From a virus, in IMG/VR virus record IMGVR_UViG_3300006917_000051, positions 1 through 43,500 of that record: a DNA stretch of 43,500 nucleotides; one strand, given 5' to 3'. The notes beneath the pieces were generated by a model. It did no database searches. It saw nothing but the letters and a program-made list of their open reading frames with translations, and was not told the DNA's origin. A program made the translations under genes and the position numbers. This document shows, piece by piece, positions 8,094 through 24,438 of this stretch (its first letter is position 1; every line of letters begins with the position of its first letter).

Positions 8094-8128
8094 TAAAATA
8101 GCTCACCTCCAAAGTGTCCTAATAATGT
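8094..8128 (+). repeat. Intergenic element, copy 1
   Basis: TAAAATAGCTCACCTCC then AAAGTGTCCTAATAATGT. First of about 14 copies. Here a 16-nt leader separates it from ATG 8145, so the element need not include the start codon. Confidence 0.8.
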
Positions 8129-8144
8129 AAGCAACCATTCTTAG

Positions 8145-8282
8145 ATGGATCCTTTCAACGACAACTATCAAATTGAAGAGGAAGGTTACTTCAACTTTGT
8201 TGATGAAGATGACATCTTTATTGATGAAGAGTTTGATGACCAATCCTTCAACGAATACCTCAACTCTACGCAAGATTTCTGA
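8145..8282 (+). CDS. Extremely acidic mini-protein (45 aa)
   Basis: 16 of 45 residues are Asp or Glu and there is no Lys, Arg or His, giving a net charge near -16. Aromatic residues are interspersed (FVDEDDIFIDEEFDDQSF). Such composition is known from DNA-mimic inhibitors, but no fold can be assigned. Follows repeat copy 1. The stop is in a TGATTATG junction. Confidence 0.65.
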   Translation: MDPFNDNYQIEEEGYFNFVDEDDIFIDEEFDDQSFNEYLNSTQDF

Positions 8283-8284
8283 TT

Positions 8285-8473
8285 ATGACGCCCGAAACTT
8301 ATACTTTCAGTGGTGATGCTGTTACCTTCCTTGGTTTGGTTGGTGTTGCTTCAACGCTTCTTATTGTTGTTACTTCTTTCCGTAGGTTCTTCAATAGTCC
8401 TTACAATGTTCGTGTGACACCTAAACAAGTGACCACCGAACCTACCACTGAAACCGAAACTCCTGTATCCTGA
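8285..8473 (+). CDS. Small membrane protein (62 aa)
   Basis: Residues 11-30 (AVTFLGLVGVASTLLIVVTS) span the membrane once, followed by RRFF and a Thr/Glu/Pro-rich tail (TTEPTTETETPVS). Starts two bases after the previous stop. Function unknown. Confidence 0.7.
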   Translation: MTPETYTFSGDAVTFLGLVGVASTLLIVVTSFRRFFNSPYNVRVTPKQVTTEPTTETETPVS

Positions 8474-8477
8474 ACAA

Positions 8478-8690
8478 ATGACTGAAACTGTGAACGTGCT
8501 GCCTCATCTGAACGAACTCAAAGAGATTTGGCGCAAGCAAGATTTCACCTTTACTAAACAACAACAGGAGGAATACGACCTTTTGCTTGCTGCACGTCGT
8601 GAACGTGTGAAATACTTTTACGATAATGATATGGTGTGTAAGATTAGTAAATCTGCTCAAGATAAACTTCGTGATGCTGAAGATAACTAA
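8478..8690 (+). CDS. Conserved small cyanophage protein (70 aa)
   Basis: Core FTFTKQQQEEYDLLLAARRE and VKYFYDNDMV, a helical protein pattern I recall from cyanomyoviruses. The gene's last codons carry the CTAAATA box for the next gene. Function unknown. Confidence 0.7.
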   Translation: MTETVNVLPHLNELKEIWRKQDFTFTKQQQEEYDLLLAARRERVKYFYDNDMVCKISKSAQDKLRDAEDN

Positions 8691-8693
8691 ATA
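8687..8693 (+). promoter_or_regulatory. Late-promoter-like box CTAAATA
   Basis: CTAAATAC 17 nt before ATG 8710, matching the box before the related gene at 7683. Probable late expression of a packaged protein. Confidence 0.5.
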
Positions 8694-8715
8694 CTAGAAA
8701 AGTGTTTAGATGACG

Positions 8716-9369
8716 ATGAAGACCTTTCAGGAGTTTATGTCTATTTGCGAAGCGTCTGATGCTGATGCTGCCAAGCAACTTGGTTGGGGTGGTGGCGCCT
8801 CAATTAAGAAAACTGGAGAAGGTGGAAGAATCGGAAGAGAGCGTAAAAAGACAACTCCCGAAAGGCGTCGTATGAGAGCAGTCGGTGGGGGTAAAATGGA
8901 ACCCGTTGACTATAAACCACGCAAGGATATTGGTCAGCAAAGAACAGCATCTGAGCGCCAACAACAACCAGAACAAGAGCGTGGAAGTGCTGAAGTAAAG
9001 CAATCTTATGCTGAAAAGGTAAAAGCAGAACGTAGAGCAGCAGCGCAAGCAAGAATTGCTGCTAAGAAAGGTGGTGGAGAAGCACCATCAGCAGCAAAAC
9101 CAAAGGCAAAGGAAGCATCAGCAACTGCAACAAAACTTTTATCTAAAAAGAAAGAAGAAAAACCAGCGCATCCTGACTATAAACCTCAGCAAGCGTCTGG
9201 TATGACTAGAGCAGAAAGAGATAGAGCAAGAAATAAGGCAAAAAGTGAAATGCTAAAGCAAAGAAAAGCAAAACTCTTCGCAGATTTTAAGGAAACTCAC
9301 GGTCGTTCACCAACTGCAAAAGAAAGAACTAAGTTGCTTGGTTTAGCTCATCAATCAATGAAAGGTTGA
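8716..9369 (+). CDS. Large basic protein with capsid-targeting-like N-terminus
   Basis: 217 residues. MKTFQEFMSICEASD matches the T4 internal-protein peptide (MKTYQEFIAEA) and has I-C-E before Ala as a likely prohead-protease site. The rest is low-complexity, Lys/Arg/Ala/Gln-rich (KAERRAAAQARIAAKKGGG, MTRAERDRARNKAKSEM), so it is strongly basic and probably disordered or helical on DNA. ATG 8710 would add only Met-Thr. Likely an internal capsid protein. The sharing of the first 12 residues with the gene at 7683 suggests one class of packaged proteins. Confidence 0.7.
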   Translation: MKTFQEFMSICEASDADAAKQLGWGGGASIKKTGEGGRIGRERKKTTPERRRMRAVGGGKMEPVDYKPRKDIGQQRTASERQQQPEQERGSAEVKQSYAEKVKAERRAAAQARIAAKKGGGEAPSAAKPKAKEASATATKLLSKKKEEKPAHPDYKPQQASGMTRAERDRARNKAKSEMLKQRKAKLFADFKETHGRSPTAKERTKLLGLAHQSMKG

Positions 9370-9375
9370 TTGAAT

Positions 9376-9412
9376 TAAAATATCTCACCTCCAAAGTGTC
9401 CCTATAGTATAG
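9376..9412 (+). repeat. Intergenic element, copy 2
   Basis: TAAAATATCTCACCTCC then AAAGTGTCCCTATAGTATAG. The start codon is 14 nt further on (9426), with GCACAACCACATT between. Confidence 0.8.
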
Positions 9413-9425
9413 GCACAACCACATT

Positions 9426-9623
9426 ATGAACCGAATTGAAATCCAAAGAGCACTTTATGATGCTCGCAATGAGTATCTGAAGGCAAAGAAATCTGTAGAG
9501 TTCTGGACTCGTGAGATTGCTTTCCTGAAAGAATGTGAGGATAATCTGGACAAACCTGCTGATTGGTTGTATAATGAAATGTTTGGTGATACTCCTATCG
9601 CTGAAGAAGTTTACGGAGGTTGA
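9426..9623 (+). CDS. Small helical hypothetical protein (65 aa)
   Basis: Mostly charged helix (MNRIEIQRALYDARNEYLKA, then KSVEFWTREIAFLKECEDNL). Preceded by repeat copy 2 and ends at a TGATGATG junction with GGAGG (9615-9619) serving the next gene. Confidence 0.7.
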   Translation: MNRIEIQRALYDARNEYLKAKKSVEFWTREIAFLKECEDNLDKPADWLYNEMFGDTPIAEEVYGG

Positions 9624-9625
9624 TG

Positions 9626-9940
9626 ATGGCAACTTGGAGAGCAGAAGTATTTGTCAACTCACAAGTTGGCAGGATTACAACGGAAGTAGAGGCAGCAACT
9701 GCATCTGGAGCACAGCAACAGATTTATGCTAAGCACGGAAATGTTCAGCAGATTGTTAATCTTCGCCAAGTAAGTTCTGGTGGTGGAGGTTCTTCATTCA
9801 GTTCTGGAGATACTGAAGGACTTGTGTGGTTGCTTGGAATTGGATTTGTACTCTATTTGCTTGTAACTTACTGGTATATTGCTATTCCTGTCGCAGTTGT
9901 TCTTGGTATTCTCCTTTTTATGGGAATGTCAGAGGATTAA
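9626..9940 (+). CDS. Membrane protein with Gly/Ser linker (104 aa)
   Basis: N-terminal 45 residues (MATWRAEVFVNSQVGRITTE) form a small soluble domain I recall from cyanophages. A Gly/Ser linker (SSGGGGSSFSSG) follows, then two adjacent membrane segments at about 64-80 and 83-100. ATG 9626 sits 6 nt after GGAGG; ATG 9623 is the alternative. The TAA stop is the first triplet of repeat copy 3. Confidence 0.75.
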   Translation: MATWRAEVFVNSQVGRITTEVEAATASGAQQQIYAKHGNVQQIVNLRQVSSGGGGSSFSSGDTEGLVWLLGIGFVLYLLVTYWYIAIPVAVVLGILLFMGMSED

Positions 9941-9975
9941 AATAGCTCACCTCCAAAGTGTCCTAATACTAGATA
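9938..9975 (+). repeat. Intergenic element, copy 3
   Basis: TAAAATAGCTCACCTCC then AAAGTGTCCTAATACTAGAT. Its first three bases are the upstream stop. The next gene's ATG follows at once. Confidence 0.8.
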
Positions 9976-11217
9976 ATGCAACTTATGAACATTCAACTCC
10001 GTCCCCATCAAGAACGTGGCGTTGCTGCTATGCAACAGCATAACAAAGGTCAAATCATTGTTCCTACTGGTGGTGGAAAGACGCTCAAGATGATCTATGA
10101 TGCTCTGCGCGAGTTTCAATCTGAAACTCCTCAGACCATTGTTGTAGTCGCTCCGCGTATTCTTCTTGCTGAGCAACTCTCTGCTGAGTTTCTGGAGTTT
10201 ATTACTAACGCTAAGGTTTTTCACGTTCACAGTGGTGAGACGCATCACGAAAGTTCTACTCGTCCCCGTGAGATTTACAACTGGGTTAATGCTAATGCCG
10301 ACAATCACAAACTGATTGTAACCACCTACAACTCTCTGTCACGTCTTCAAGTGGCACAGATTGATGTGGATACCATCTACTTTGACGAAGCACATAACAG
10401 CGTTCAGCGTCACTTTTTCCCTGCGACTGAGCACTTCTCTGCTAACGCACGACGCTGCTATTTCTTCACTGCTACCCCCAAACATTCTCTTGCTGTGGGT
10501 AAACCTGGAATGAATGATGTTGCTGTTTATGGTCAGGTCATCTGCAAAGTTCCTGCTCCTGAACTTGTTGAAGGTGGTTACATTGTGCCCCCTAAAGTTA
10601 TCGTCAAGCAACTGCCGATGGTAACTGGAAAGCAGACCAACTATGACCGCGATGCAGAGAACCTGCTGGAAACGATTGATGAGAACAGCGTCGGTAAGAT
10701 CCTGATCTGTGCTAAGGCAACCAAGCAAATCGTTTCGCTTGTGTCTGAAACTGATTTCTGCTCTGAACTAGAGGATCGCGGTTACTCTTGGATGTATATC
10801 ACCTCCAAGACGGGTGCTATCATTGATGGTCAGAAAGTGAACCGCGAGGTATTCTTTGACACCCTATCTGCTTGGGGTAAGGATAACGACAAGAAGTTCG
10901 TTGTTCTACACCATAGCATCCTCGCTGAGGGTATCAACGTCAGCGGTCTGGAAGCGGTACTCTTCCTTCGCAATATGGACTTCATTGGTATCTCTCAGAC
11001 CATCGGACGTTGCATCCGTTTGCATCACGATGATGCGAAAGGTATGCGCGATGGACGTATCCAACCTGGCAACCTTGCTCAGTATAGCAAATCGTTCGGT
11101 CTGGTTTGTGTACCTGTGTACTCTAAGGTTGGTATCAGCACCGCCCGTGCAGTTCAGTCGGTTGTTGATACGATTTTCCAGAAGGGGGAACCTGCCGTGT
11201 CGGTGGTTCGCAGGTGA
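9976..11217 (+). CDS. Superfamily 2 DEAH-box helicase
   Basis: 413 residues with the SF2 motif set: Walker A PTGGGKT (30-36), motif Ia VAPRILLAEQL, DEAH (137-140), FTATP (164-168), motif V region HHSILAEGINV and motif VI QTIGRCIR (about 330). The type III restriction/UvsW-like helicase fold is likely: ATP-driven remodelling of branched DNA or RNA. It is followed by an endonuclease VII-like gene and a methyltransferase, fitting recombination or DNA processing. Rich in CGT/CGC codons and more GC-rich than the structural genes. ATG 9985 is an alternative start. Confidence 0.9.
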   Translation: MQLMNIQLRPHQERGVAAMQQHNKGQIIVPTGGGKTLKMIYDALREFQSETPQTIVVVAPRILLAEQLSAEFLEFITNAKVFHVHSGETHHESSTRPREIYNWVNANADNHKLIVTTYNSLSRLQVAQIDVDTIYFDEAHNSVQRHFFPATEHFSANARRCYFFTATPKHSLAVGKPGMNDVAVYGQVICKVPAPELVEGGYIVPPKVIVKQLPMVTGKQTNYDRDAENLLETIDENSVGKILICAKATKQIVSLVSETDFCSELEDRGYSWMYITSKTGAIIDGQKVNREVFFDTLSAWGKDNDKKFVVLHHSILAEGINVSGLEAVLFLRNMDFIGISQTIGRCIRLHHDDAKGMRDGRIQPGNLAQYSKSFGLVCVPVYSKVGISTARAVQSVVDTIFQKGEPAVSVVRR

Positions 11218-11220
11218 GAC

Positions 11221-11327
11221 CCGCTGAGAACCCAGTCCCCATCAGGGTTCAAACCCTGATTTTTCTGTAATTTCACCACAACCGACCTAGAACCCATCCG
11301 CCGCAACCAAATCAACGATTTTTTCAA
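11221..11327 (+). repeat. 110-bp dispersed repeat, copy A
   Basis: Shares CGCTGAGAACCC, CCTGATTTTTCTG, AATTTCACC, CATC-GC-GCA and AACGATTTTTTC in the same order with 18880-18988. Both copies lie just after a gene and before a small downstream gene. Read on the minus strand, copy A has stops where copy B is open, so these may be remnants of a lost coding segment. Confidence 0.7.
11241..11264 (+). terminator. Terminator after the helicase gene
   Basis: ATCAGGGT (11241-11248) pairs with ACCCTGAT (11253-11260), loop TCAA, followed by TTTTC: a perfect 8-bp stem with a T-run 24 nt after the helicase stop. The equivalent position in repeat copy B has lost the left arm. Confidence 0.75.
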
Positions 11328-11334
11328 AAGTGTA

Positions 11335-11865
11335 ATGAACAACGAAACTTTTCTATGTCCTTGTTGTAGTTCTGAGAAAACATCAGACCATTTTGTGCTA
11401 TCAGGCAGAAAGTTTCCTCTCATTTCAGTATGCAATGAGTGTTCTGATGAGCACTTCGTTGAGAAGGTTGATTGCACTTGTTCCGTATGCAAAAGGAAAC
11501 TACCTCACACCTATTTTCAACACTATCGCACAAGATTCAAGAAGAATGGTATGCGATTGCGAGTAAATACAAATTGTAAGGATTGCTCACGGAAAGAAAG
11601 TTCTATCGTTTCTAAACTCAAGAGGGACAATCCTCCACCATCTTACTTGACTTCCTGCCCACAATGTAGTAAAGTTTGTTATGAAAAGGTAGAGGACATT
11701 CCTGAGGGTGTTGATGGTACAAATGGACCTTGGCAATGTGACCACGATCATAAAACAAAACAGTTTCGTGGATATTTGTGCAAGCGTTGCAATACAGGAA
11801 CTGGACTAATCGGTGATAATGTAGAATACTTCCAAATTGCATTAGAGAATAAAAAAGAACGATGA
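11335..11865 (+). CDS. Endonuclease VII-like nuclease with zinc-binding N-terminus
   Basis: 176 residues. Residues about 132-160 (CDHDHKTKQFRGYLCKRCN, then GTGLIGDN) are the recombination endonuclease VII/HNH signature: His-rich catalytic strand, then Cys pair and GLGxxxDN. The N-terminal half has four further CxxC-type pairs (CPCC, CNEC, CSVC, CKDC) suggesting zinc fingers, longer than plain T4 gp49. Role: cutting of branched DNA, or a free-standing homing relative. It overlaps the methyltransferase by ATGA, so they are co-translated. Confidence 0.85.
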   Translation: MNNETFLCPCCSSEKTSDHFVLSGRKFPLISVCNECSDEHFVEKVDCTCSVCKRKLPHTYFQHYRTRFKKNGMRLRVNTNCKDCSRKESSIVSKLKRDNPPPSYLTSCPQCSKVCYEKVEDIPEGVDGTNGPWQCDHDHKTKQFRGYLCKRCNTGTGLIGDNVEYFQIALENKKER

Positions 11866-12707
11866 ATCTCAATCAAATTATTACATCTGATAACGTTGAG
11901 TATCTAAAAACTCTTCCTGATGAATGTATTGATTTGATTGTAACTTCCCCTCCCTATGATGAACTCAGAGATTACAATGGATATACTCTAGACCTTCACA
12001 GTTTGGGTGAGCAACTTCTTCGCGTCTTGAAGGATGGTGGAATCTGTGTGATGGTAATACAAGATTCTACGAAAGATTTTGCTAAATCTCTAACGTCATT
12101 TCGCACGATTGTTGATTGGTGCGATAACATTGGATTTCGTTTGTTTGAGTGCAACATATATCACAGACAAGGAACTGAGGGTGCTTGGTGGACTAAAAGG
12201 TTTAGAGTGGATCATGAATATATGCCCATATTCTTGAAGGGTAGGAGACCACAATACTTTGACAAAGAGAATATCAAAATACCATCAAAGCACGCCAATA
12301 AGGTTATGACTGGTGCTAACATTCGCACTAAAAATGGTAAAACTGGTTCTCGCAAAGTTAAAATCAATCCAACAAAATGCCCAGGAACTGTGATGACATT
12401 TGGTAATACTTGTGGTGGAGAAAGTAAGTTAAAAAGTCAGCATCCCGCAGTATTTCCCAATATGTTAGCGTATGATATGATAGAATGTTTCTGTCCACCA
12501 AACGGTGTGGTTCTTGATCCATTCAATGGAAGCGGCACTACAACTCTAGCAGCAAAGTGTCTAGGTAGAAACTATATTGGAATAGACATTTCTGAAGAGT
12601 ATTGTAACATTGCTGTTCAGAGATTGCACACTGAAACGATAACCAGAAAAAAGGTAGAAACTACAAATCAACTTATAGGATTGGAGCAATTTATTAGTTA
12701 TGATTGA
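11862..12707 (+). CDS. DNA methyltransferase, beta class (N4C or N6A)
   Basis: 281 residues. Motif IV (VTSPPYDELRDYNGY, about residue 26) comes before motif I (DPFNGSGTTT, about residue 222), the beta-class order. SPPY is most often N4-cytosine but occurs in N6-adenine enzymes. It uses S-adenosylmethionine to modify DNA. Coupled to the endonuclease VII-like gene upstream. It may protect phage DNA from host restriction. Confidence 0.9.
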   Translation: MNLNQIITSDNVEYLKTLPDECIDLIVTSPPYDELRDYNGYTLDLHSLGEQLLRVLKDGGICVMVIQDSTKDFAKSLTSFRTIVDWCDNIGFRLFECNIYHRQGTEGAWWTKRFRVDHEYMPIFLKGRRPQYFDKENIKIPSKHANKVMTGANIRTKNGKTGSRKVKINPTKCPGTVMTFGNTCGGESKLKSQHPAVFPNMLAYDMIECFCPPNGVVLDPFNGSGTTTLAAKCLGRNYIGIDISEEYCNIAVQRLHTETITRKKVETTNQLIGLEQFISYD

Positions 12708-12876
12708 AGGATTCATTATTGGTAAAGGTGACTATGCTGCCGTTCCTTTCGGTGAGCAACTGATGATAATCTATCAGGGTGAGCAACTCAAAGTATGCAA
12801 GACCGAAGCATCAGCACGAAAGTTTATTGTGGATCATAAAAAGGGTAAATCCCAGGCACAACTTCCTATAGAATAA
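12700..12876 (+). CDS. Small conserved hypothetical protein (58 aa)
   Basis: Begins MIEGFIIGKGDYAAVPFGEQ and has a basic C-terminus (EASARKFIVDHKKGKSQ). Overlaps the methyltransferase end by 8 nt, and its TAA is part of repeat copy 4. Function unknown. Confidence 0.65.
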   Translation: MIEGFIIGKGDYAAVPFGEQLMIIYQGEQLKVCKTEASARKFIVDHKKGKSQAQLPIE

Positions 12877-12909
12877 AATAGCTCACCTCCAAAGTGTCCT
12901 AATAGTATG
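12874..12909 (+). repeat. Intergenic element, copy 4
   Basis: TAAAATAGCTCACCTCC then AAAGTGTCCTAATAGTATG. It runs exactly from the upstream TAA to the downstream ATG with nothing else between the two genes. Confidence 0.85.
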
Positions 12910-13830
12910 ACGACCAAACAAATGCAGAACAAACATCTAGAGCACCCTGAAGATTGTATCCTGACTGGTGATCTGTCAGTTCTGGATTGGTTCTCTGAAT
13001 CTGATAGTTCTATCAGCATCAAGATGGATGGTGCTCCTGCTATTGTGTGGGGAACAAATCCTCAGAATGGTAAGTTTTTTGTTTGTACAAAAGCAGCATT
13101 TAACAAGCAAAAGATTCGTCTTTGCTATAATGAGGATGACATCTTCACACATTTCGGTGGACAACCTCGCGTAACGCAAATCCTCATTTTCTGTCTGGAT
13201 TTCCTTCCTCGCACTAATCAAGTGTTGCAAGGTGATTGGATTGGTTTCGGCAGTGGGTTGGATACATTTACTCCGAACACGATTACCTACAAGTTTCCTG
13301 CACCAGTTCGTCAGGATATTATCATTGCACCTCACACAATCTACAGCGGTGCTGATGATATTCGTGAGATGACTGCTGCTCCTTTGATGAGCAAACTCAT
13401 CAGCACTAAGCATTGTCTTTTCGTGCAACCTCAGGTCTCTCTTAATCCTTTCCGTGAGGATTTGGAGGATGTGTGTAACTTTGCAAAGCAAATGTCTACG
13501 CTGTGTGAGTTTGTGAGCGACAAGAAAGCATCACAAATTAAAAAAGAGATCAACGCTTGCATCCGTGAGCAAAAGGTCATTGATGAGGATGAAATTGCAG
13601 AAAAATGTGATTGTGATGTGAATGTCCTGCGTCTTTGGAAGTTGGTTAAATCTATCAAGGATGATTTGTTCCTGTTCATTCACGAAGAGGATGACATTGA
13701 GTGTTACATTCACGATGAGCAATCATTCCACGAAGGTTATGTGATTTCCAACAAGTATGGGACACTTAAAGTAGTGGACCGCGAAGTATTCTCTCACGCC
13801 AACTTCACCGTCAGCAAGAATTGGGGTTGA
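12907..13830 (+). CDS. Ligase-like covalent nucleotidyltransferase
   Basis: 307 residues. K39-M-D-G (SIKMDGAPAIVWG) fits the KxDG adenylation lysine of DNA/RNA ligases and capping enzymes, followed by NGKFFVCTKAAFNK. QGDWIGFG could be the motif III position. EGYVISNKYGTLKVV near residue 275 fits motifs IV-V (EGxV...K). So an ATP-dependent ligase or end-modifying enzyme is likely, of a phage family without known substrate. No C-terminal OB fold is obvious. The in-frame ATG 12922 is an alternative start if the repeat element is a promoter. Confidence 0.7.
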   Translation: MTTKQMQNKHLEHPEDCILTGDLSVLDWFSESDSSISIKMDGAPAIVWGTNPQNGKFFVCTKAAFNKQKIRLCYNEDDIFTHFGGQPRVTQILIFCLDFLPRTNQVLQGDWIGFGSGLDTFTPNTITYKFPAPVRQDIIIAPHTIYSGADDIREMTAAPLMSKLISTKHCLFVQPQVSLNPFREDLEDVCNFAKQMSTLCEFVSDKKASQIKKEINACIREQKVIDEDEIAEKCDCDVNVLRLWKLVKSIKDDLFLFIHEEDDIECYIHDEQSFHEGYVISNKYGTLKVVDREVFSHANFTVSKNWG

Positions 13831-13832
13831 GA

Positions 13833-13868
13833 TAAAATAGCTCACCTCTAAAGTGTCCTAGTAGTATG
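13833..13868 (+). repeat. Intergenic element, copy 5
   Basis: TAAAATAGCTCACCTCT then AAAGTGTCCTAGTAGTATG, ending in the next gene's ATG. A second in-frame ATG is 15 nt downstream (13881). Confidence 0.85.
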
Positions 13869-14027
13869 AGCACAACCAAAATGACTGAAACTGATCTCCT
13901 CACTCTCCGTGAGCAACTTCAGGAAGATTTGATGTCTTGGCGTGATGTAAATGATCTGCCCGAGTTTGTTGATGAAGAACTCTGCGACATCGTTGTTTAT
14001 GCTTTCTCCAAGTTCCTGAATAAGTGA
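13866..14027 (+). CDS. Small acidic hypothetical protein (53 aa)
   Basis: Helical, acidic (LREQLQEDLMSWRDVNDLPE). ATG 13866 is inside the repeat element; ATG 13881 would leave a 48-residue product with a leader. Ends in a TGATTATG junction. Confidence 0.65.
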   Translation: MSTTKMTETDLLTLREQLQEDLMSWRDVNDLPEFVDEELCDIVVYAFSKFLNK

Positions 14028-14029
14028 TT

Positions 14030-14383: not shown

Positions 14384-14389
14384 TTGAAA

Positions 14390-14420
14390 GGGGGGACGCT
14401 GAAAGTGTCCTAGTAGTATG
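14390..14420 (+). repeat. Intergenic element, divergent copy 6
   Basis: The right half is kept (GAAAGTGTCCTAGTAGTATG) but the left half is replaced by AGGGGGGACGCT. It shows that the right half with its ATG is kept more strictly than the TCACCTCC part. Confidence 0.7.
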
Positions 14421-14537
14421 AACACTCCAAACTGGAAACACAACTCTGGTAAGCATAAACGAACCAAGGGTATGTGTAAGGGTAAAATCAAATCCCGCAA
14501 GCAATCTCTTCAATCACTCAAACTGAAACTGAAATGA
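14418..14537 (+). CDS. Highly basic mini-protein (39 aa)
   Basis: 13 Lys/Arg and 2 His in 39 residues (MNTPNWKHNSGKHKRTKGMC, then KIKSRKQSLQSLKLKLK). Likely binds nucleic acid or an acidic partner. Starts in the divergent repeat copy and overlaps the next gene by ATGA. Confidence 0.55.
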   Translation: MNTPNWKHNSGKHKRTKGMCKGKIKSRKQSLQSLKLKLK

Positions 14538-16022: not shown

Positions 16023-16060
16023 TAAAATAGCTCACCTCCAAAGTGTCTCAATAATATAAA
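16023..16060 (+). repeat. Intergenic element, copy 7
   Basis: TAAAATAGCTCACCTCC then AAAGTGTCTCAATAATATAA, followed by a short leader (GGCAACTATTCAAC) and a GTG start at 16075. Clear case where the TAATAT part could act as a -10 box with a leader. Confidence 0.8.
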
Positions 16061-16074
16061 GGCAACTATTCAAC

Positions 16075-16614
16075 GTGTTTGTTTCTATTTTTGAGGACGG
16101 ATCTCTCCAAGATTACATCAATCAAAATGCACAAGATCCTTGGATTGGTACACCTTTCCAGGGTTATGTGTTTATGTCTCCCAAGCAAAAGGGGGAGTTT
16201 GGTGAGCGTTTCGTCTCTAAGTTCTTTGAGAATGTATTGTTGTGTGATGTAAAACGTGCCAAAACATCTACAGCAGGGCACGATCGTGTGATTGATAACA
16301 TTCGCACAGAAATCAAGTTCTCTCTTGCTACCCGTGACAAAAAAGGTGGCACAAAGAAAGATCAATTTATCATCAATCACGTTTCTAAAGATAAAGATTG
16401 GGAACGTCTTGTGTTCTTTGGTATCAACCAAGATGAGAAAGATTGTCGCCTGTTTTGGTTCAGTAAAGAGGATTTCCTGAATCATCTTGAGTCGGAAGAT
16501 TGTCTGTTTGCACCACAACAAGGTGGAAAATCTATCGGCAATGATGATTACATTTGCACAAAAGTTGATCGTCTGGTAGAATGTTCCTTTGTGAAGAGCA
16601 TAACCGAATGGTGA
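16075..16614 (+). CDS. Putative PD-(D/E)XK restriction-type endonuclease
   Basis: 179 residues with GTG start. KGEFGERFVSKFF (39-51) supplies the leading helix with Glu41/Glu44. GHDRVIDNIRTEIKFS (68-83) places Asp70 or Asp74 before E79-I-K81, the metal-binding D...ExK of the restriction-endonuclease fold. The stop overlaps the start of a DNA methyltransferase gene, the usual arrangement of a type II restriction-modification pair. A role in degrading unmodified host or rival DNA is inferred. Alternative: a non-specific or repair nuclease of the same fold. Confidence 0.6.
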   Translation: MFVSIFEDGSLQDYINQNAQDPWIGTPFQGYVFMSPKQKGEFGERFVSKFFENVLLCDVKRAKTSTAGHDRVIDNIRTEIKFSLATRDKKGGTKKDQFIINHVSKDKDWERLVFFGINQDEKDCRLFWFSKEDFLNHLESEDCLFAPQQGGKSIGNDDYICTKVDRLVECSFVKSITEW

Positions 16615-17336
16615 ATCTATTTCACGGCGATTGTTTAGACATTCTGCCAACACTTGCAGACAACTCTGTAGATCTGGTGTTGGTAGATTTGCCATACGGT
16701 ACAACAGCGTGTAAATGGGATTCTATCATTCCTCTGGACAAATTGTGGGAGCAATATAACAGAATCTGTAAGGAAGATGGTGCAATGGTATTCACTGCAG
16801 CACAACCTTTCACCACTATACTTGCAGCATCAAATCTTGAGAACCTTCGTTATGAATGGATTTGGGAAAAACCGCAAGGAACTAATCCTATGAACGCGAA
16901 AGTTATGCCTCTCAAGTCACACGAAAACATCCTGGTCTTTTATAGAAAGAAACCCACATACAATCCTCAGATGTGGTACTCTACACCTTACAGTGGTTTC
17001 TCATCAGAAACCAGTAAGATTGGTGAGGTTTATGGTAAAGCAAAGAGCAAGCATAGGGATAATCCTGATGGATCAAGATACCCTAAGACAGTATTGCGAT
17101 TCAAGCAAGAAAAGGGTCTGCATCCTACACAAAAACCTGTTGATTTGATGGAGTATCTAATCAAAACGTACACTAACGAAGGTGATACTGTGCTAGACAA
17201 TACGATGGGATCAGGTACAACTGGTGTAGCATGTGTGAACACCAACAGAAACTTTGTGGGTATTGAGAGTGATGAGAAATACTACAAGATCGCTGAGGAA
17301 AGGATCAACAACCCACTCTTAAATGCTATGAATTAA
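16608..17336 (+). CDS. DNA adenine methyltransferase, beta class
   Basis: 242 residues. MVNLFHGDCLDILPTLADNS, then motif IV VDLPYGTTACKWD, later LHPTQKPVDLMEYLI and motif I DNTMGSGTTGVAC: beta-class DNA methyltransferase of the DLPY (N6-adenine) type. Start ATG 16608 overlaps the nuclease stop (GAATGGTGA); GTG 16611 is also possible. Coupled expression with the nuclease suggests protection of phage DNA. The TAA stop opens repeat copy 8. Confidence 0.9.
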   Translation: MVNLFHGDCLDILPTLADNSVDLVLVDLPYGTTACKWDSIIPLDKLWEQYNRICKEDGAMVFTAAQPFTTILAASNLENLRYEWIWEKPQGTNPMNAKVMPLKSHENILVFYRKKPTYNPQMWYSTPYSGFSSETSKIGEVYGKAKSKHRDNPDGSRYPKTVLRFKQEKGLHPTQKPVDLMEYLIKTYTNEGDTVLDNTMGSGTTGVACVNTNRNFVGIESDEKYYKIAEERINNPLLNAMN

Positions 17337-17369
17337 AATAGCTCACCTCCAAAGTGTCCTAGTAGTATG
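17334..17369 (+). repeat. Intergenic element, copy 8
   Basis: TAAAATAGCTCACCTCC then AAAGTGTCCTAGTAGTATG, exactly spanning the methyltransferase TAA to the next ATG. Confidence 0.85.
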
Positions 17370-17606
17370 AGCAACAACATCGTTTCCGAAATCTACTCCT
17401 ACCACACAAACTGGAAGGAGGGTAAAGTCAACCAGATGTGGATTGAGCAATCTGGTGATGAGAACAAAGGTTATTCTTTCGTCGCTGTAGCACACAATCC
17501 CCGCAATGGTAAGACGATGGAAATGTCTAACCCTCGCACATCTTACCGTGAAACTCTAGAATGGGTTCGTGGTTGGTGTGGTACTTTTTGTGTTCTTCCT
17601 GTTTGA
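17367..17606 (+). CDS. Small hypothetical protein (79 aa)
   Basis: MSNNIVSEIYSYHTNWKEGK, with Trp-rich C-terminus (ETLEWVRGWCGTFCVLPV). The ATG is the end of the repeat element and no in-frame ATG follows until codon 24, so the element really seems to carry the start. Function unknown. Confidence 0.7.
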   Translation: MSNNIVSEIYSYHTNWKEGKVNQMWIEQSGDENKGYSFVAVAHNPRNGKTMEMSNPRTSYRETLEWVRGWCGTFCVLPV

Positions 17607-18371: not shown

Positions 18372-18373
18372 TT

Positions 18374-18640: not shown

Positions 18641-18642
18641 TT

Positions 18643-18885
18643 ATGTCTGACCTGCAAGAGTTCTACGATTATGTTCTCTCTTTCTATGGTGCTGATGGAT
18701 TGTATCCTATGGGTGCAACTCTGAGCGTCATCAAGCAAGCAACATCCACACACATTAAGATACTTAAACTGAAAGGAAATGAGTTCTGTGGTGATAGTAT
18801 TGACCGCGAATGTGTGCGGGATTTGTTAATCTCAAAATATGGTCTGACCTTCCCAACTGCTCCCGTCTCACTTGCGTCTCGCTGA
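18643..18885 (+). CDS. Small hypothetical protein (80 aa)
   Basis: MSDLQEFYDYVLSFYGADGL, soluble and mixed alpha/beta by eye. Its last codons run into repeat copy B. Function unknown. Confidence 0.7.
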   Translation: MSDLQEFYDYVLSFYGADGLYPMGATLSVIKQATSTHIKILKLKGNEFCGDSIDRECVRDLLISKYGLTFPTAPVSLASR

Positions 18886-18988
18886 GAACCCTGTCCACCA
18901 CTAGACCAAAAACCTGATTTTTCTGCAATTTCACCTGACAGACCCCATAGGTCATCTGCTGCAGAGAAATTAACGATTTTTTCCAAAC
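18880..18988 (+). repeat. 110-bp dispersed repeat, copy B
   Basis: Homologous to 11221-11327. Read on the minus strand it is open and gives EKIVNFSAADDLWGLSGEIA, EKSGFWSSGGQGSQRD. The matching frame in copy A keeps several of these residues but has TAG and TGA. Substitutions partly fall on third positions, hinting at former coding. The left arm of the copy A terminator is not kept here. Confidence 0.65.
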
Positions 18989-19001
18989 TCTAAACAATCC
19001 A

Positions 19002-19145: not shown

Positions 19146-19146
19146 T

Positions 19147-19182
19147 TAAAATAGCTCACCTCTAAAGTGTCCTAGTAGTATG
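19147..19182 (+). repeat. Intergenic element, copy 9
   Basis: TAAAATAGCTCACCTCT then AAAGTGTCCTAGTAGTATG ending in the next ATG. Confidence 0.85.
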
Positions 19183-19350
19183 ACTGACACTTTCACCGTT
19201 CGTTTCTGGTCTGAATCTCTTGATTCTCCAGAATACATTGGACCTTTCTACTCTGAAGAAGATGCCCAAGATTATTGCGATGCCCGCAACGGTTCGCTAT
19301 CTCTAAGCGGTATTCCTTCCTGGGTTGCAAACTACTCTATCGTTGACTGA
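19180..19350 (+). CDS. Small hypothetical protein (56 aa)
   Basis: MTDTFTVRFWSESLDSPEYI, GPFYSEEDAQDYCDARNGSL. Short beta/helix fold, acidic. Resembles the gene at 21099 in layout (strand, YVTETEAQ-like helix). Ends in a TGATTATG junction. Confidence 0.65.
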   Translation: MTDTFTVRFWSESLDSPEYIGPFYSEEDAQDYCDARNGSLSLSGIPSWVANYSIVD

Positions 19351-19352
19351 TT

Positions 19353-20054: not shown

Positions 20055-20191
20055 TTGAAACTGATTTCTTTATTCTCTCACAAGAACAGTATCAGCAAAC
20101 TCTCCAAGATGCTGCCATTGAAGGTGTATCTGTTGACTACTATTTGCTGGAGTTTTGTACTGTTGAAGGTGAGTGGGTTACAGTGGAATAA
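20051..20191 (+). CDS. Small acidic hypothetical protein (46 aa)
   Basis: MIETDFFILSQEQYQQTLQD. Coupled by ATGA, and its TAA is the first triplet of repeat copy 10. No family recognised. Confidence 0.6.
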   Translation: MIETDFFILSQEQYQQTLQDAAIEGVSVDYYLLEFCTVEGEWVTVE

Positions 20192-20224
20192 AATAGCTCA
20201 CCTCTAAAGTGTCCCAATAGTATG
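20189..20224 (+). repeat. Intergenic element, copy 10
   Basis: TAAAATAGCTCACCTCT then AAAGTGTCCCAATAGTATG, exactly stop to start. Confidence 0.85.
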
Positions 20225-20470
20225 AACGACCAAACCTCCTACACTTCTCCTCACACTGGTAACATTTATCAGTGTATTGTTGAGAAGAATTGGCGTCAAT
20301 CTTGGGACGCAAATGGTAATGCTTTCAAGAAGTATTACAACACTTATAGTTTCTTTCTGAATGGAGAGTTTATCACTAAAACTCTTCACAATGATGAAAA
20401 GACTCTAAGCACAACGTTTGGAGAGTTGGAGGGAGTTTATACTCCTTGGATGACATCTGCAAGGGATTAA
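20222..20470 (+). CDS. Small hypothetical protein (82 aa)
   Basis: MNDQTSYTSPHTGNIYQCIV, FLNGEFITKTLHNDE: beta-rich, aromatic. Flanked on both sides by the repeat element, so it looks like a complete cassette. Function unknown. Confidence 0.7.
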   Translation: MNDQTSYTSPHTGNIYQCIVEKNWRQSWDANGNAFKKYYNTYSFFLNGEFITKTLHNDEKTLSTTFGELEGVYTPWMTSARD

Positions 20471-20503
20471 AATTACTCACCTCCAAAGCGTCCTAGTAGT
20501 ATG
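20468..20503 (+). repeat. Intergenic element, copy 11
   Basis: TAAAATTACTCACCTCC then AAAGCGTCCTAGTAGTATG, exactly stop to start. It differs at a few positions (TTACT for TAGCT, GCG for GTG). Confidence 0.8.
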
Positions 20504-20788
20504 AACACAAACGATCTCCTAGACAGCATCAAACTCTCTGAGCAACTGGCGCTGGAAAACTATCAACAACGCAACGGTGTTGTTGATTATCGCCTTGACG
20601 GAGTTTGCAATCATTACTTCGCAAAGTATGATTGGAATGGTAAGCGTGACGGTGAGATTTGTCTCACTTGTAAAGTTTCCAAAACCGTAAAAGGTTCGCT
20701 CCGTTACACTTTCCAGATTGACGGTAAGCGTATCGCATACAAAGAGATTTGGACTAAGTTTAACTCTCTTGGTGCATTTCGCATCTGA
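20501..20788 (+). CDS. Hypothetical protein (95 aa)
   Basis: MNTNDLLDSIKLSEQLALEN, then a basic beta-rich part with two Cys (DGEICLTCKVSKTVKGSLRY). An additional Cys-His (VCNHYFAKY) upstream could complete a zinc site, but the spacing is unusual. Starts at the repeat's ATG. Confidence 0.7.
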   Translation: MNTNDLLDSIKLSEQLALENYQQRNGVVDYRLDGVCNHYFAKYDWNGKRDGEICLTCKVSKTVKGSLRYTFQIDGKRIAYKEIWTKFNSLGAFRI

Positions 20789-20825
20789 TTTTTCTCACAA
20801 ACTCATTCATTCTTAAGTAACACAA

Positions 20826-21092: not shown

Positions 21093-21098
21093 ACTGAA

Positions 21099-21278: not shown

Positions 21279-21291
21279 AATCTCCAAGCGA

Positions 21292-21329
21292 TTAAAGTTA
21301 CTCACCTCCAAAGTGTCCCAGTAGTATAA
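21292..21329 (+). repeat. Intergenic element, copy 12
   Basis: TTAAAGTTACTCACCTCC then AAAGTGTCCCAGTAGTATAA, followed by a 24-nt C/A-rich leader to ATG 21354. Confidence 0.8.
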
Positions 21330-21353
21330 CCACCACACTTTCCCAACCACAAA

Positions 21354-21665
21354 ATGCGTAAGATTGAAGCACAAATGAACCGCGCAATCTCCCAAGAGAT
21401 TGATTGGCAAAAAGACAACACTCAAGTTATCAACATTGAAGGCGTAAGTTTCGTCTATCTGTATAGCAATCTGATTGCTATGGTTGGTGATACTTGGTTG
21501 GAACTGTTTGATGGCGGACATCAAACAAATACCACCAAATCGCGTCTCAATGCTATTCTTGCAGAGCACGGAACTGGTGAGCGTGTTTATCAAAAAGATT
21601 TCACTTGGTTTGTATCAACATCCAACGGTGAAGTTCCTTTCAACAATGGTATCAAACTTTCCTGA
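21354..21665 (+). CDS. Conserved cyanophage hypothetical protein (103 aa)
   Basis: MRKIEAQMNRAISQEIDWQK, DNTQVINIEGVSFVYLYSN, TTKSRLNAILAEHG, YQKDFTWFV: a family I recall from many cyanophages, of unknown function. Overlaps the next gene by TGATG. Confidence 0.8.
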   Translation: MRKIEAQMNRAISQEIDWQKDNTQVINIEGVSFVYLYSNLIAMVGDTWLELFDGGHQTNTTKSRLNAILAEHGTGERVYQKDFTWFVSTSNGEVPFNNGIKLS

Positions 21666-21862
21666 TGACTGAATCTCAAATCCTTCAACTTCGTTTTCTT
21701 TGTAGTGATGTGATTTTCGATTTTGAGTTTACACAATTCCTGATTGATAATCCACAAGACAAAGACAAAATCAAACAAAAAGCGCAACAATACTACAACA
21801 AACTTCAAGCAATTCTTGGTGATGCCTATGTCCCTGATTCTGAAATGTCTCTCCCGTGCTGA
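21665..21862 (+). CDS. Small helical hypothetical protein (65 aa)
   Basis: MTESQILQLRFLCSDVIFDF, QDKDKIKQKAQQYYNKLQAI. Helical. Overlaps the next gene by 35 nt in another frame. Confidence 0.65.
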   Translation: MTESQILQLRFLCSDVIFDFEFTQFLIDNPQDKDKIKQKAQQYYNKLQAILGDAYVPDSEMSLPC

Positions 21863-22001
21863 GGAGTTAGCAAACGAAATCAATGGTGATTTGTTCTATG
21901 TACCTGAAGAAGATGTCCAACAACTTATCTCCAAACTCACCGAAGATAATGTAGAAGAGATTGCATCAGAACTCGCAGATTTAGCATACTGGTTTAACTA
22001 A
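21828..22001 (+). CDS. Small helical acidic protein (57 aa)
   Basis: MSLILKCLSRAEELANEING, YVPEEDVQQLISKLTEDNVE: strongly helical. The long overlap with the previous gene could mean the start is later, but no in-frame ATG remains. ATG 21822 is an alternative. Confidence 0.6.
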   Translation: MSLILKCLSRAEELANEINGDLFYVPEEDVQQLISKLTEDNVEEIASELADLAYWFN

Positions 22002-22002
22002 A

Positions 22003-22134
22003 ATGTTCGTTATTCGTTACTTCCGTCCTTATACTCAAGAATGGAATACTCAGTCATTCAGTACACTTGAAGAAGCACAATCTATGATTGACTTCTATCG
22101 TTCTTGCGGTTCCCCTGCTAATCTTATCAAATGA
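22003..22134 (+). CDS. Small hypothetical protein (43 aa)
   Basis: MFVIRYFRPYTQEWNTQSFS, TLEEAQSMIDFYRSCGSP: strand-then-helix layout as in the genes at 19180 and 21099. ATGA overlap with the next gene. Confidence 0.65.
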   Translation: MFVIRYFRPYTQEWNTQSFSTLEEAQSMIDFYRSCGSPANLIK

Positions 22135-22406
22135 AAGTCGCTCCAATTTCTTTCGCCAAAGCGTCCAATCGTTCCAACTATTATTGTACTTTAATCAACA
22201 ATCTGTATAAGAAAGGTTATACGACTCAACAGATTGCAGATGAGTTAGGTATGGGAAAGACATCAGTTCGTTATTACTATTATGGTCTACATAACTGTTC
22301 TGAAGCACAGTATCATTGGAAAAATGCTTTCAATGCAAATAAAGAACTCGGATACATTCAGCACAGTTTAACACAAATTCGCGTCGGTACTTCTGTTCCT
22401 ATTTGA
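22131..22406 (+). CDS. Small helix-turn-helix DNA-binding protein (91 aa)
   Basis: Residues about 24-54 (LYKKGYTTQQIADELGMGKT, SVRYYYYGL) form a clear helix-turn-helix of the Hin/resolvase-sigma type, with a Gly at the turn and Ser-Val-Arg starting the recognition helix. No dimerisation domain is obvious. A phage transcription regulator is likely. The 16-bp palindrome at 23247 would be a candidate target. Confidence 0.75.
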   Translation: MKVAPISFAKASNRSNYYCTLINNLYKKGYTTQQIADELGMGKTSVRYYYYGLHNCSEAQYHWKNAFNANKELGYIQHSLTQIRVGTSVPI

Positions 22407-22410
22407 TGTT

Positions 22411-22569
22411 ATGACAATCACAAGTTTCTATAACGGAGAATCGTATTCTAAGTTTGATTCGTATTATGAACCAGAGCACGATGATGTAATGGATGCAGAT
22501 GATTATGAACGTAGAGAGTATTATCGTAATGGATGGAATGAAGAGCAATACGATAGACAAAGGTTCTGA
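22411..22569 (+). CDS. Tyr/Asp-rich small protein (52 aa)
   Basis: MTITSFYNGESYSKFDSYYE, DDYERREYYRNGWNEEQYDR: very rich in Tyr, Asp and Arg, probably disordered or partner-dependent. Its last codons contain the -35 box of the promoter at 22554. Confidence 0.65.
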   Translation: MTITSFYNGESYSKFDSYYEPEHDDVMDADDYERREYYRNGWNEEQYDRQRF

Positions 22570-22582
22570 GTTATGATATAAT
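22554..22582 (+). promoter_or_regulatory. Consensus sigma-70-type promoter for a putative small RNA
   Basis: TAGACA (22554-22559), 17-bp spacer, TATAAT (22577-22582). It matches the bacterial consensus at 11 of 12 positions. Expected RNA start about 22589. Host RNA polymerase alone should read it, so early expression is likely. Confidence 0.75.
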
Positions 22583-22588
22583 GAAGAG

Positions 22589-22702
22589 GAAGGGAGTTTG
22601 CCTCTATTCAGTAAACAAAGTGACTTCCGTAGAGTATAGATAATTTCCAATAAAAGGTGGTTGGGTGTATAAGAGAGGGACTGGTAATCCCTCTCTTTTT
22701 TT
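22589..22702 (+). ncRNA. Putative phage small RNA (about 114 nt)
   Basis: A short unit bounded by a consensus promoter and a strong terminator with no credible gene inside. The only ATG frame (22581) overlaps the -10 box. Predicted 5' fold: GGAAG (22588-22592) with CTTCC (22624-22628) enclosing GTTT/AAAC. A single-stranded A-rich middle follows, then the terminator hairpin. Layout is that of a trans-acting small RNA. Alternative: a 5' leader whose gene was replaced by the adjacent HNH insertion. Confidence 0.55.
22671..22702 (+). terminator. Strong intrinsic terminator
   Basis: 10-bp perfect stem AAGAGAGGGA (22671-22680) with TCCCTCTCTT (22688-22697), 7-nt loop, then a run of seven T (22696-22702). 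Reads on the plus strand. It meets the stop codon of the minus-strand HNH gene. Confidence 0.9.
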
Positions 22703-23204
22703 ATGTCAACAAACGACGTAATCCGTATTGCATAATGTAACTGTCTAATGCACTTTCAATGATAGTATTGAAGAATGTATTGTTATCAGGAACTGGTAAT
22801 CCTTTTCTTATAGAAGCAGAGTAAACGTTCTTTATTTTTTCTGCTACAAAATCGTCAACAATATAACCATCAAACTGCTTTTGTTTCTTATCCTCTTTCC
22901 ATTCAATGTTCTCTAATCTGTTATCACTTTTATCACCATTCTTATGTTCAACATCGCGTGAAATGTTGTCAGTAGGAATGAAAGCAAGTGCCATCAATCT
23001 ATGAACAGAAAAGTTCTTTAATCGTCCTGTATTATCCGTTAATCTTACAAATCTATCTGCTGATGTTTTGCTCTTCCAACCAGGAGAAAGTTTCTTTGAT
23101 TTGTTATTCTTAAAGGACCAAACATTACCCTCTGTGTCTATACCATAATCAGGGTAACATTTCAGTGCTTCAACATTAGAGAAGTGCTTGATTCTTGTCT
23201 CCAT
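22701..23204 (-). CDS. NUMOD4-HNH homing endonuclease (minus strand)
   Basis: 167 residues. Residues 14-40 (YPDYGIDTEGNVWSFKNNKS) are the NUMOD4 motif. HRLMALAFIP and DVEHKNGDKSDNRLENIEW are the HNH core (H...N...N, with H-K-N-G-D-K). Free-standing, AT-rich, convergent with the small-RNA unit. AGGA lies 11 nt before the start and can pair in a hairpin that holds a late-promoter-like box. Confidence 0.9.
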   Translation of the reverse strand: METRIKHFSNVEALKCYPDYGIDTEGNVWSFKNNKSKKLSPGWKSKTSADRFVRLTDNTGRLKNFSVHRLMALAFIPTDNISRDVEHKNGDKSDNRLENIEWKEDKKQKQFDGYIVDDFVAEKIKNVYSASIRKGLPVPDNNTFFNTIIESALDSYIMQYGLRRLLT

Positions 23205-23246
23205 TTGTGTGTTTTTTCCTGTCTGATTTATGTAGGGAAAAAGAGA

Positions 23247-23281
23247 TTTCCACTTGTGGAAAACGTGAAATGAGTTATAAT
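23247..23281 (+). promoter_or_regulatory. Palindrome overlapping a candidate promoter
   Basis: TTTCCAC TT GTGGAAA (23247-23262) is an operator-like palindrome. TATAAT (23276-23281) lies downstream, and TTGTGG (23254-23259) in the palindrome is a weak -35 with a 16-bp spacer. Binding of a repressor there would block the promoter. On the minus strand the same hairpin is followed by TCTCTTTTT and could act as a weak terminator. Confidence 0.45.
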
Positions 23282-23475
23282 GCGTGAAATAAAGGTGTTG
23301 TGAAAAGTGTATAGAATGTGAGGGTATTCTCTCTGTATTCTTATAAATGTGCTGAGACCTTGTTATCTAAGCGAGCATACACAAAGGAACGCGATTTGTC
23401 AACCCCCAAAGTCACAAAATCCTCACAAGACCCCCGCAAAATCCCCCGGAGCGCCCCTAAATACTCCTCAGGTAC

Positions 23476-23504
23476 TTGACACTTACCCCAAGACATTATA
23501 GAAT
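23476..23504 (+). promoter_or_regulatory. Consensus sigma-70-type promoter
   Basis: TTGACA (23476-23481), 17-bp spacer, TAGAAT (23499-23504). RNA would start at about 23511 and lead into the gene at 23532, which has AGGAG 6 nt before its ATG region. Perfect -35 box. Confidence 0.75.
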
Positions 23505-23531
23505 GTTTCCATAGCACACAGGAGCGTACTT

Positions 23532-23705
23532 ATGTCAGTTGTGTATCACCAGGCACAGAAGCAGCGTTATAGGGTAACTCTAGAACTCAATGTCCTATCC
23601 GACTTCGATCCACACCAAATTGACTGGGAGAAACTATTCAAATTGGAACCTGCAGAGAGGTGTGAAGCATACGTGGAGGATCTAGATTGCCCCTCTAAGT
23701 GGTAA
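23532..23705 (+). CDS. Conserved small cyanophage protein (57 aa)
   Basis: MSVVYHQAQKQRYRVTLELN, VLSDFDPHQIDWEKLFKLEP, AYVEDL: a family I recall from cyanomyoviruses. Preceded by AGGAG (23519-23523) and the promoter at 23476. First gene of the block that follows the gene-free stretch. Function unknown. Confidence 0.75.
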   Translation: MSVVYHQAQKQRYRVTLELNVLSDFDPHQIDWEKLFKLEPAERCEAYVEDLDCPSKW

Positions 23706-23717
23706 AATAGGCACTTT

Positions 23718-23771
23718 TAGTTTTGATAGCATAACCCCCCCTAAATACCCCTAGTTATGCTATCAAAACTA
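23718..23771 (+). promoter_or_regulatory. 18-bp perfect inverted repeat enclosing a late-promoter-like box
   Basis: TAGTTTTGATAGCATAAC (23718-23735) and GTTATGCTATCAAAACTA (23754-23771) pair perfectly. The 18-nt loop CCCCCCTAAATACCCCTA holds CTAAATA (23741-23747). The last base of the right arm is the A of the next ATG. Late initiation at about 23753 would remove the left arm; longer RNA would bury the start codon. No Shine-Dalgarno sequence is seen. Confidence 0.7.
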
Positions 23772-23950
23772 TGAGACCATTAAAGTATAAGAATTTGGGC
23801 AATGGAGTGATGATTCGCGTCCCTGAAATCGTCACCACAATTCTACCACAACTGCAAGACGTTATGCAACAGTTAGAGGATAACGGTGAGGATACTCGTG
23901 AGGTGATAATGCAGATTCTCAGTGATGTTGAGGATCGCATCAATTCATAG
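23771..23950 (+). CDS. Small hypothetical protein behind the 18-bp hairpin (59 aa)
   Basis: MRPLKYKNLGNGVMIRVPEI, TTILPQLQDVMQQLEDNGED: short basic strand region, then two acidic helices. Its start codon touches the large inverted repeat, so its translation is probably gated by it. Followed by repeat copy 13. Function unknown. Confidence 0.65.
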   Translation: MRPLKYKNLGNGVMIRVPEIVTTILPQLQDVMQQLEDNGEDTREVIMQILSDVEDRINS

Positions 23951-23953
23951 TAT

Positions 23954-23990
23954 TATAATAGCTCACCTCTAAAGTGTCTCAGTAGTATAA
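23954..23990 (+). repeat. Intergenic element, copy 13
   Basis: TTATAATAGCTCACCTCT then AAAGTGTCTCAGTAGTATAA, followed by a 55-nt leader to ATG 24046. TATAAT replaces TAAAAT at the left end. Confidence 0.8.
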
Positions 23991-24045
23991 GGGCGCCACA
24001 CTCTACACGGCGTTCTTATCACAAACACTTTCACTTTTCGTTGTT

Positions 24046-24390
24046 ATGAATTCCGCCCAAATCCTGACGTTCACTGAAGCATTTCCTCCCGCTCATAAGT
24101 TGACTGAAACTCTGATGAACATTGACTATAAAAAGCACCTGAACACCTATATGGATGGTGTTATGAATGTCTGTGCATTTATCGCTGTGATCGCTACTCT
24201 GATCGCCTCTAAGTGGCAGGAGAATGATGTTACTGAGCGTCTGCAAATCGCTGCTCTGAACGTTATCACCTGGACCCGCAACGTTGCAGTCCCCGCTGTG
24301 AAGAACGCAGCAACTGTAACTTATAACGCAGGTCAGAAAGTGCGTGAGGTTTATGATGTGATCTCTTCGCCTCTGTTCATTACTCTTTGA
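24046..24390 (+). CDS. Membrane protein (114 aa)
   Basis: MNSAQILTFTEAFPPAHKLT; a membrane segment at about 40-56 (VMNVCAFIAVIATLIAS); then an amphipathic, charged C-terminal half (LNVITWTRNVAVPAVKNAAT). GC-richer, with CGC/CGT codons. Long leader with no ribosome site. Function unknown. Confidence 0.75.
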   Translation: MNSAQILTFTEAFPPAHKLTETLMNIDYKKHLNTYMDGVMNVCAFIAVIATLIASKWQENDVTERLQIAALNVITWTRNVAVPAVKNAATVTYNAGQKVREVYDVISSPLFITL

Positions 24391-24400
24391 GTTGTAAGCA

Positions 24401-24438
24401 TTATAATATCTCACCTCTAAAGTGTCTCAGTAGTATAA
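24401..24438 (+). repeat. Intergenic element, copy 14
   Basis: TTATAATATCTCACCTCT then AAAGTGTCTCAGTAGTATAA, followed by a 46-nt C/A-rich leader to ATG 24484. Confidence 0.8.

Follow-up and report, generated by a model that had tools for sequence, protein, structure and literature searches.

A repeated two-module element in T4-like cyanophages and a candidate virion protein whose C-terminus co-segregates with its phage-specific word

At T4 middle promoters the sequence-specific MotA box (TGCTT-like) replaces the -35 element upstream of a sigma70-like -10, and MotA is made during infection. The start-associated sequences of Cluster K mycobacteriophages are reportedly short conserved sequences repeated beside start codons, and we know of no word-and-factor structure for them. 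Doron et al. are said to have described, in 2016, a novel element ahead of early genes of cyanophage Syn9, which belongs to the same phage family as the phages studied here. In this work we analyse an intergenic element repeated in a 43.5-kb stretch of viral DNA (the window; positions 1 to 43,500 of IMG/VR record IMGVR_UViG_3300006917_000051), together with a protein encoded in the same region that is its candidate cognate factor. The window is a fragment of a T4-like cyanophage near the Kyanoviridae phages S-SM2 and SynMITS9220M01.

Like a T4 middle promoter, the element places a phage-specific sequence at -35 ahead of a sigma70-like -10; unlike it, there is no TGCTT-like box here and the sequence at -35, which we call the word, differs among relatives. 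Repetition beside start codons is shared with the Cluster K sequences, a likeness drawn by description only, and Syn9 lacks both the element and the factor. The stoperators of Cluster A mycobacteriophages are many short asymmetric sites, mostly in one orientation and group-specific, and the Cluster A immunity repressor is a cognate protein that co-varies with its site (PMC6550527, PMC9283540). The element resembles them in that its sites are asymmetric, many per genome, mostly in one orientation and phage-specific, but it has full promoter geometry and a fixed core. Unlike the Cluster A repressor, the factor has no detected helix-turn-helix (HTH) domain (no Pfam match) and looks virion-packaged and late-expressed, and the hosts and phages of the two systems are unrelated. 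T4 Alt and the internal proteins IPI-III (PMC9026906) are like the factor in having an N-terminus of the capsid-targeting sequence (CTS) kind, often a gp21-like (L/I)xE site, a basic composition and a late-type motif. Directly after injection Alt targets host RNA polymerase (PMC9026906). It is however an enzyme that is not known to read DNA sequence-specifically, whereas the C-terminus of the factor co-varies with a DNA word.

Compared across relatives, the element consists of two modules, a fixed core and a word of which each genome has one. Viral contigs in IMG/VR were scanned with both element halves, and all copy and locus figures given here are among the matches listed. The scan found at least 1,129-1,284 distinct copies, depending on the mismatch limits. 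The core AAAGYGTCYYNNTAGTRTR is fixed across relatives and is preceded by a word of 9-12 nt. With the C of CTCACCTC numbered as position 0, C4, AAAG.GT (9-15), TAGT.T (21-26) and A28 are constant throughout; positions -4 to 3 agree at 0.79-0.97 within loci and at 0.33-0.52 between them, and the core agrees in both comparisons. Hand rules assigned the words to classes A (CTCACC), B (GGGCCC), C (GAAGCC), C2 (GAGCC), D (GGGGGG-ACG), E (GGGGCC), F (TTGGATC), G (GGATCGTC), I (GGAGCC) and T (GTAACC). Uniformity was tested in 133 loci with at least four copies each. The majority word of the locus was found in 867 of the 886 copies (shuffles: mean 389, at most 407), and 120 loci were pure for one word, compared with a mean of 1.2 in shuffles; foreign-word copies occurred in 13 of the 133. 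S-SM2, for example, has 12 copies with the word AAAGGGGGGACGCTG, and in SynMITS9220M01 the corresponding region contains 12 copies of the form seen in the window.

Up to 10 words stand in front of one gene family, and the gene that follows the foreign-word copy of the window has relatives with words B, C2 or E at 91-95% identity. Because the same gene lies behind different words while the word is nearly uniform within loci, we conclude that genes move and that the word belongs to the genome. The original prediction had raised cassette exchange; gene swapping between phages is supported, but the word stays with the genome and not with the gene.

The element precedes the gene for a DUF6267 protein (12907-13830; Pfam E 1e-79) in more than 100 relatives, with all ten words. 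The core itself can drift genome-wide: in one phage (L452-L454) most copies have AAAGTGCATC where others have AAAGTGTCC. In phage P-TIM68 (19059-22961) it has drifted to AAATTGA..TAATGTA with an AAGGA-containing leader, and the word is still of class T.

Among the relatives the C-terminus of the factor co-segregates with the word, and the factor co-occurs with the element. For each of 107 gene families we scored how often the nearest relative of a protein came from a phage with the same word. The basic-protein family of the factor led the 107, at 0.84 compared with 0.25 expected (n=93, 10 words); the second-best family (0.73) was small (n=15), and the remaining families reached 0.61 or less. 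By segment, the score was 0.94 for the last 60 residues (chance 23%), 0.69 for the first 60, 0.64 for the core and 0.72 for the middle. Related phages are not independent, though the N- and C-terminal parts of the factor gene behave differently, and the contrast between 0.94 at the C-terminus and 0.64-0.72 elsewhere would not be expected from linkage alone. The five nearest-neighbour misses include L070, a single-copy locus, and L072, which is mixed. With these two left out, 32 of 32 C-terminal clusters at 70% identity had a single word each, and 0.82 of the word entropy was carried by residue X1, which follows E-R or E-K (D for word A, L for F, N for G and M for T). A-type factors form seven separate clusters, all with ERD and then R or K two residues on; the factor of the window is of this type (GMTRAERDRARN). 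Many threshold choices were made during the analysis, and several approaches tried earlier did not lead to the factor; profiling by presence/absence and by genome-level identity gave no clear cognate candidate.

Factor and element were both present in 2 of 12 cultured phages and both absent in the other 10; the factor was not found in one partial contig with four element copies. A tblastn search with the factor located further phages, and in 5 of 5 examined records, four of them independent, the word fits the helix type, the two being paired by eye. RN05-S and S-B05 have near-identical A-type factors and the word TTACTCACC, and were counted as one test. The other matches were P-TIM68 (T-type helix, word GTTAGTTACC), AG-345-O18 (D-type helix, GGGGGGTCG) and AG-345-E15 (C-type helix, CTGAAGC).

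The factor has a CTS-like N-terminus and its gene a late-type upstream motif, as judged from its relatives. N-termini across the family are of the MK/RTFxxF type (e.g. MKTFQEF..E|A), similar to the T4 CTS MKTxxxF in a likeness that is one of similarity only, and 58 of 81 factors have a gp21-like [LI]xE site in residues 6-20. TAAATA lies within 60 nt upstream of all 81 factor genes (81/81) compared with 150 of 1612 other genes (9%). The first 10 residues of the T4 CTS are enough for packaging, and T4 CTS proteins and Alt are packaged in the head and ejected, after which Alt shifts host RNA polymerase towards T4 promoters (PMC9026906). We infer that the factor is likewise packaged in the virion and injected. 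An AlphaFold model built on 14 sequences places helices at residues 165-195 and 201-216, with 10-residue blocks at pLDDT 80-94, and the first of these C-terminal helices begins at the word-specific motif. Another basic protein with a CTS-like start (MRTFREFIHICEGKK), without a PHROG match, is encoded at 7683-8093.

The word occupies the -35 position, and the spacer to the -10-like TAGTRT is 17 nt (16 in phage RN05-S). The -10 has the form TANNNT within a 16-18 nt spacing, with T99, A95 and T96 at positions 21, 22 and 26. The -35 is variable and unlike TTGACA, and a consensus promoter scan paired no copy's TAGTAT with a -35. A T4 late promoter -10 of the TATAAATA type was not found in the element consensus; the factor gene does have one. 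There was no MotA box (TGCTT-type near -30) in the copy alignments. Conservation fades after A31, just past the expected +1; together with the spacing of word and TAGTRT this fits a promoter with a putative RNA start near position 31-33. The stop codon of the upstream gene lies at -16 to -5 in about 70% of copies, so nothing 5' of the word seems to be required. Start codons fall into two sets, one exactly at 25 and one from 40 onwards (mode 42-44), with few in between. Among about 1,175 copies position 25 begins 549 in-frame ATG, 23 out-of-frame ATG and 7 in-frame GTG; about half of the copies have an in-frame ATG inside the -10. A promoter with TAGTAT as its -10 had been put forward in the original prediction, and it is the reading best supported by the 17-nt spacer, the fading conservation and the leadered starts that set in sharply from 40, although it conflicts with the internal ATG.

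On balance we favour, with some reserve, the explanation that the copies are early promoters of T4-like cyanophages and that an injected virion protein recognises the word at -35. The element would be an early (prereplicative) promoter of one T4-like cyanophage group, built of two modules. Its 3' module, AAAGYGTCC..TAGTRT..CA, would hold the -10 (TAGTRT) and the start region; its 5' module, the word of 9-12 nt at -35, which is uniform within a phage and of about ten kinds among phages, would be recognised by the basic helical C-terminus of the virion protein. The factor would be expressed late in infection, from a TAAATA-type promoter; its N-terminus, which resembles the T4 capsid-targeting sequence, would take it into the prohead, and once injected along with the DNA it would direct host RNA polymerase to the phage's own early promoters. 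DNA binding by the factor, activation rather than repression, and early timing are likewise inferred. We put at about even chances the broader claim that the factor is a transcription factor with sequence specificity, delivered by the virion, and thus a phage analogue of herpesvirus VP16. On that view a short basic helix would read the -35 word, about ten mutually exclusive specificity classes would exist in this one ocean phage group, and every particle would carry a key that fits its own early promoters but not a competitor's.

Several points weigh against this explanation. Its support consists entirely of sequence comparison, and the follow-up pairing of helix types with word classes was by eye. 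The factor model is weak overall (mean pLDDT 68, 14 sequences), and no known DNA-binding fold was found in the factor: Pfam gave 0 matches, PHROGs just a weak Ref-endonuclease match (E 0.017) and Foldseek with the model nothing below E 2. The objection that the ATG lies before the RNA start expected from such a -10 had been raised at the outset, and the conflict is real in about half of the roughly 1,175 copies, where an ATG lies 5' of the proposed +1. About half of these ATG-25 copies have a second in-frame ATG at 40-49, and about 40% have none in codons 2-15. With an ATG upstream of the +1 and no second start, the promoter's own first gene needs read-through; such copies are probably served by read-through RNA or by initiation further upstream.

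The same placement of start codons would be expected if RNA started at the purine at position 25, with ATG copies leaderless, the others carrying leaders of 15-19 nt, and the same virion factor reading the word. Position 25 is nearly always a purine (A or G) preceded by T24, start codons fall exactly there or from 40 and rarely between, GTG at 25 is seldom a start (7 in frame compared with 549 ATG), and one orthologue uses either start position in different phages. However, 7 nt before 25 stands TGTCCY, which is no -10-like hexamer, the copies show no avoidance of an out-of-frame ATG at 25 compared with GTG, and the 16/17-nt spacing from word to TAGTRT fits a start at 31-33; we hold a start at 25 to be unlikely, though a serious candidate. 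We see a slim chance that the factor acts on the word as on an operator or stoperator, repressing initiation or blocking elongation, directed for instance at a second phage that infects the cell. Short asymmetric intergenic sites in one orientation, phage-specific and with a co-varying protein, are what Cluster A mycobacteriophages have (PMC6550527), but the fixed core here has a -10 at the proper spacing, and with a factor that looks virion-delivered and late-expressed the phage would repress its own early genes as it enters.

Stop-to-start placement of copies, and an internal ATG truly used in half of them (549 in frame compared with 23 out), would also suit a site for translation, processing or an RNA-binding protein in a polycistronic mRNA. 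Such an RNA-level role, which the original prediction had wished to keep in view, gained no positive support: the window has no Rfam match, the distance to the start codon is not fixed and ranges from 25 to more than 100, and the hairpin potential seen in S-SM2 is by inspection not common to other words. It appears improbable. We think it very improbable that a recombination or cassette boundary is the main function. A fixed core could act as a crossover anchor, the same gene at 91-95% identity stands behind words B, C2, D and E, and the 13 loci with foreign-word copies fit such exchange, but this leaves the uniformity of the word per genome and the co-variation of the protein unexplained; exchange is better seen as a by-product.

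Other candidates were rejected. The upstream TAAARTT as -10 is missing in S-SM2. Anti-Shine-Dalgarno mimicry was considered for CTCACCTCC, which we take to resemble the 16S 3' end; the other words do not resemble it. The RNA hairpin GGGUCGC-CUAAA-GCGUCCC of S-SM2 is not found with other words, and for a T7-type single-subunit promoter the word lies too far upstream. A small HTH-like protein encoded at 22131-22406 (TTQQIADELGMGKTSVRYYYYG; Pfam HTH_23 E 0.0005, below the cut-off) was rejected as cognate because it occurs in few loci only. Searches for HTH_3, HTH_23 and Sigma70_r4_2 gave no match in S-SM2 or SynMITS9220M01, and no similar element emerged from motif enrichment in Syn9, P-TIM40, S-TIM4 or S-PM2. 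Bacterial genomes gave 19 isolated matches to the element, scattered over unrelated species and taken as chance.

In the window the repeat proved real and close to the predicted 14 copies: 13 full copies of the pattern TAAAATAGCTCACCTC-Y-AAAGTGTCC..TAGTATG and a 14th with a different 5' word, every one on the + strand (Table 1). The reversed pattern gave 0 matches, and shuffles gave 0.07 compared with 10 observed. The copy at 14390, previously taken for a half, is complete; its 5' word is of the type found in the cultured phage S-SM2. The TAA noted in five copies is indeed the stop of the preceding gene in each. Seven of the eight ATG starts that had been claimed also held, and the eighth (9976) belongs to a derived copy in which the ATG is shifted. 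For the gene after the 12874 copy, ATG 12922 corresponds to the start of its orthologues.

Table 1. Element copies and factor gene in the window. The first coordinate of each word-A copy is the first base of its TAAAATAG part; class A copies have ATG at position 25, class B copies a leader and then ATG.
Feature	Coordinates	Strand	Word	Class	Start codon	Remarks
Candidate cognate factor, 217 aa	8716..9369	+				N-terminus MKTFQEFMSICE, like T4 capsid-targeting sequence; C-terminal helix GMTRAERDRARNKAK, word-A type
Late-promoter-like motif CTAAATACT	8689..8697 (approximate)	+				ahead of factor gene
Element copy	8094..8133	+	A	B
Element copy	9376..9415	+	A	B
Element copy	9938..9977	+	A			derived -10 (TAATACTAG), ahead of helicase gene; TAA = upstream stop
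Element copy	12874..12913	+	A	A	ATG 12907	TAA = upstream stop
Element copy	13833..13872	+	A	A	ATG 13866
Complete element copy	14387..14424	+	D, foreign (AAAGGGGGGACGCTG)		ATG 14418	word and core
Element copy	16023..16062	+	A	B
Element copy	17334..17373	+	A	A	ATG 17367	TAA = upstream stop
Element copy	19147..19186	+	A	A	ATG 19180
Element copy	20189..20228	+	A	A	ATG 20222	TAA = upstream stop
Element copy	20468..20507	+	A	A	ATG 20501	TAA = upstream stop
Element copy	21293..21332	+	A	B
Element copy	23954..23993	+	A	B
Element copy	24402..24441	+	A	B

The repeat region (8-24.5 kb of the window) consists of small genes ahead of the gp25/gp6 baseplate genes, and in relatives the copies are likewise grouped on one strand in a single stretch spanning about 10-20 kb. 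Another intergenic repeat, about 130 nt long (11208-11335 and 18866-18993), with a terminator-like hairpin (11241-11260), is also present in many relatives. A 247-nt coding repeat occurs in three diverged copies (152-398, 4186-4432 and 6354-6600) that are possibly homing-endonuclease paralogues. Two N6/N4 DNA methyltransferases are encoded at 11862-12707 and 16581-17336; the gene at 16075-16614, which precedes the latter and has no Pfam match, could encode a nuclease.

If the early-promoter explanation is true, a specificity switch would be carried by the particle itself. It would answer how these phages start their early genes, and a widespread unannotated repeat and a 'hypothetical' protein would be explained together. 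The words and helices would form a natural protein-DNA recognition code of about ten pairs readable from sequence, and co-infecting phages would have a mechanism for separating their early programmes while freely swapping genes.

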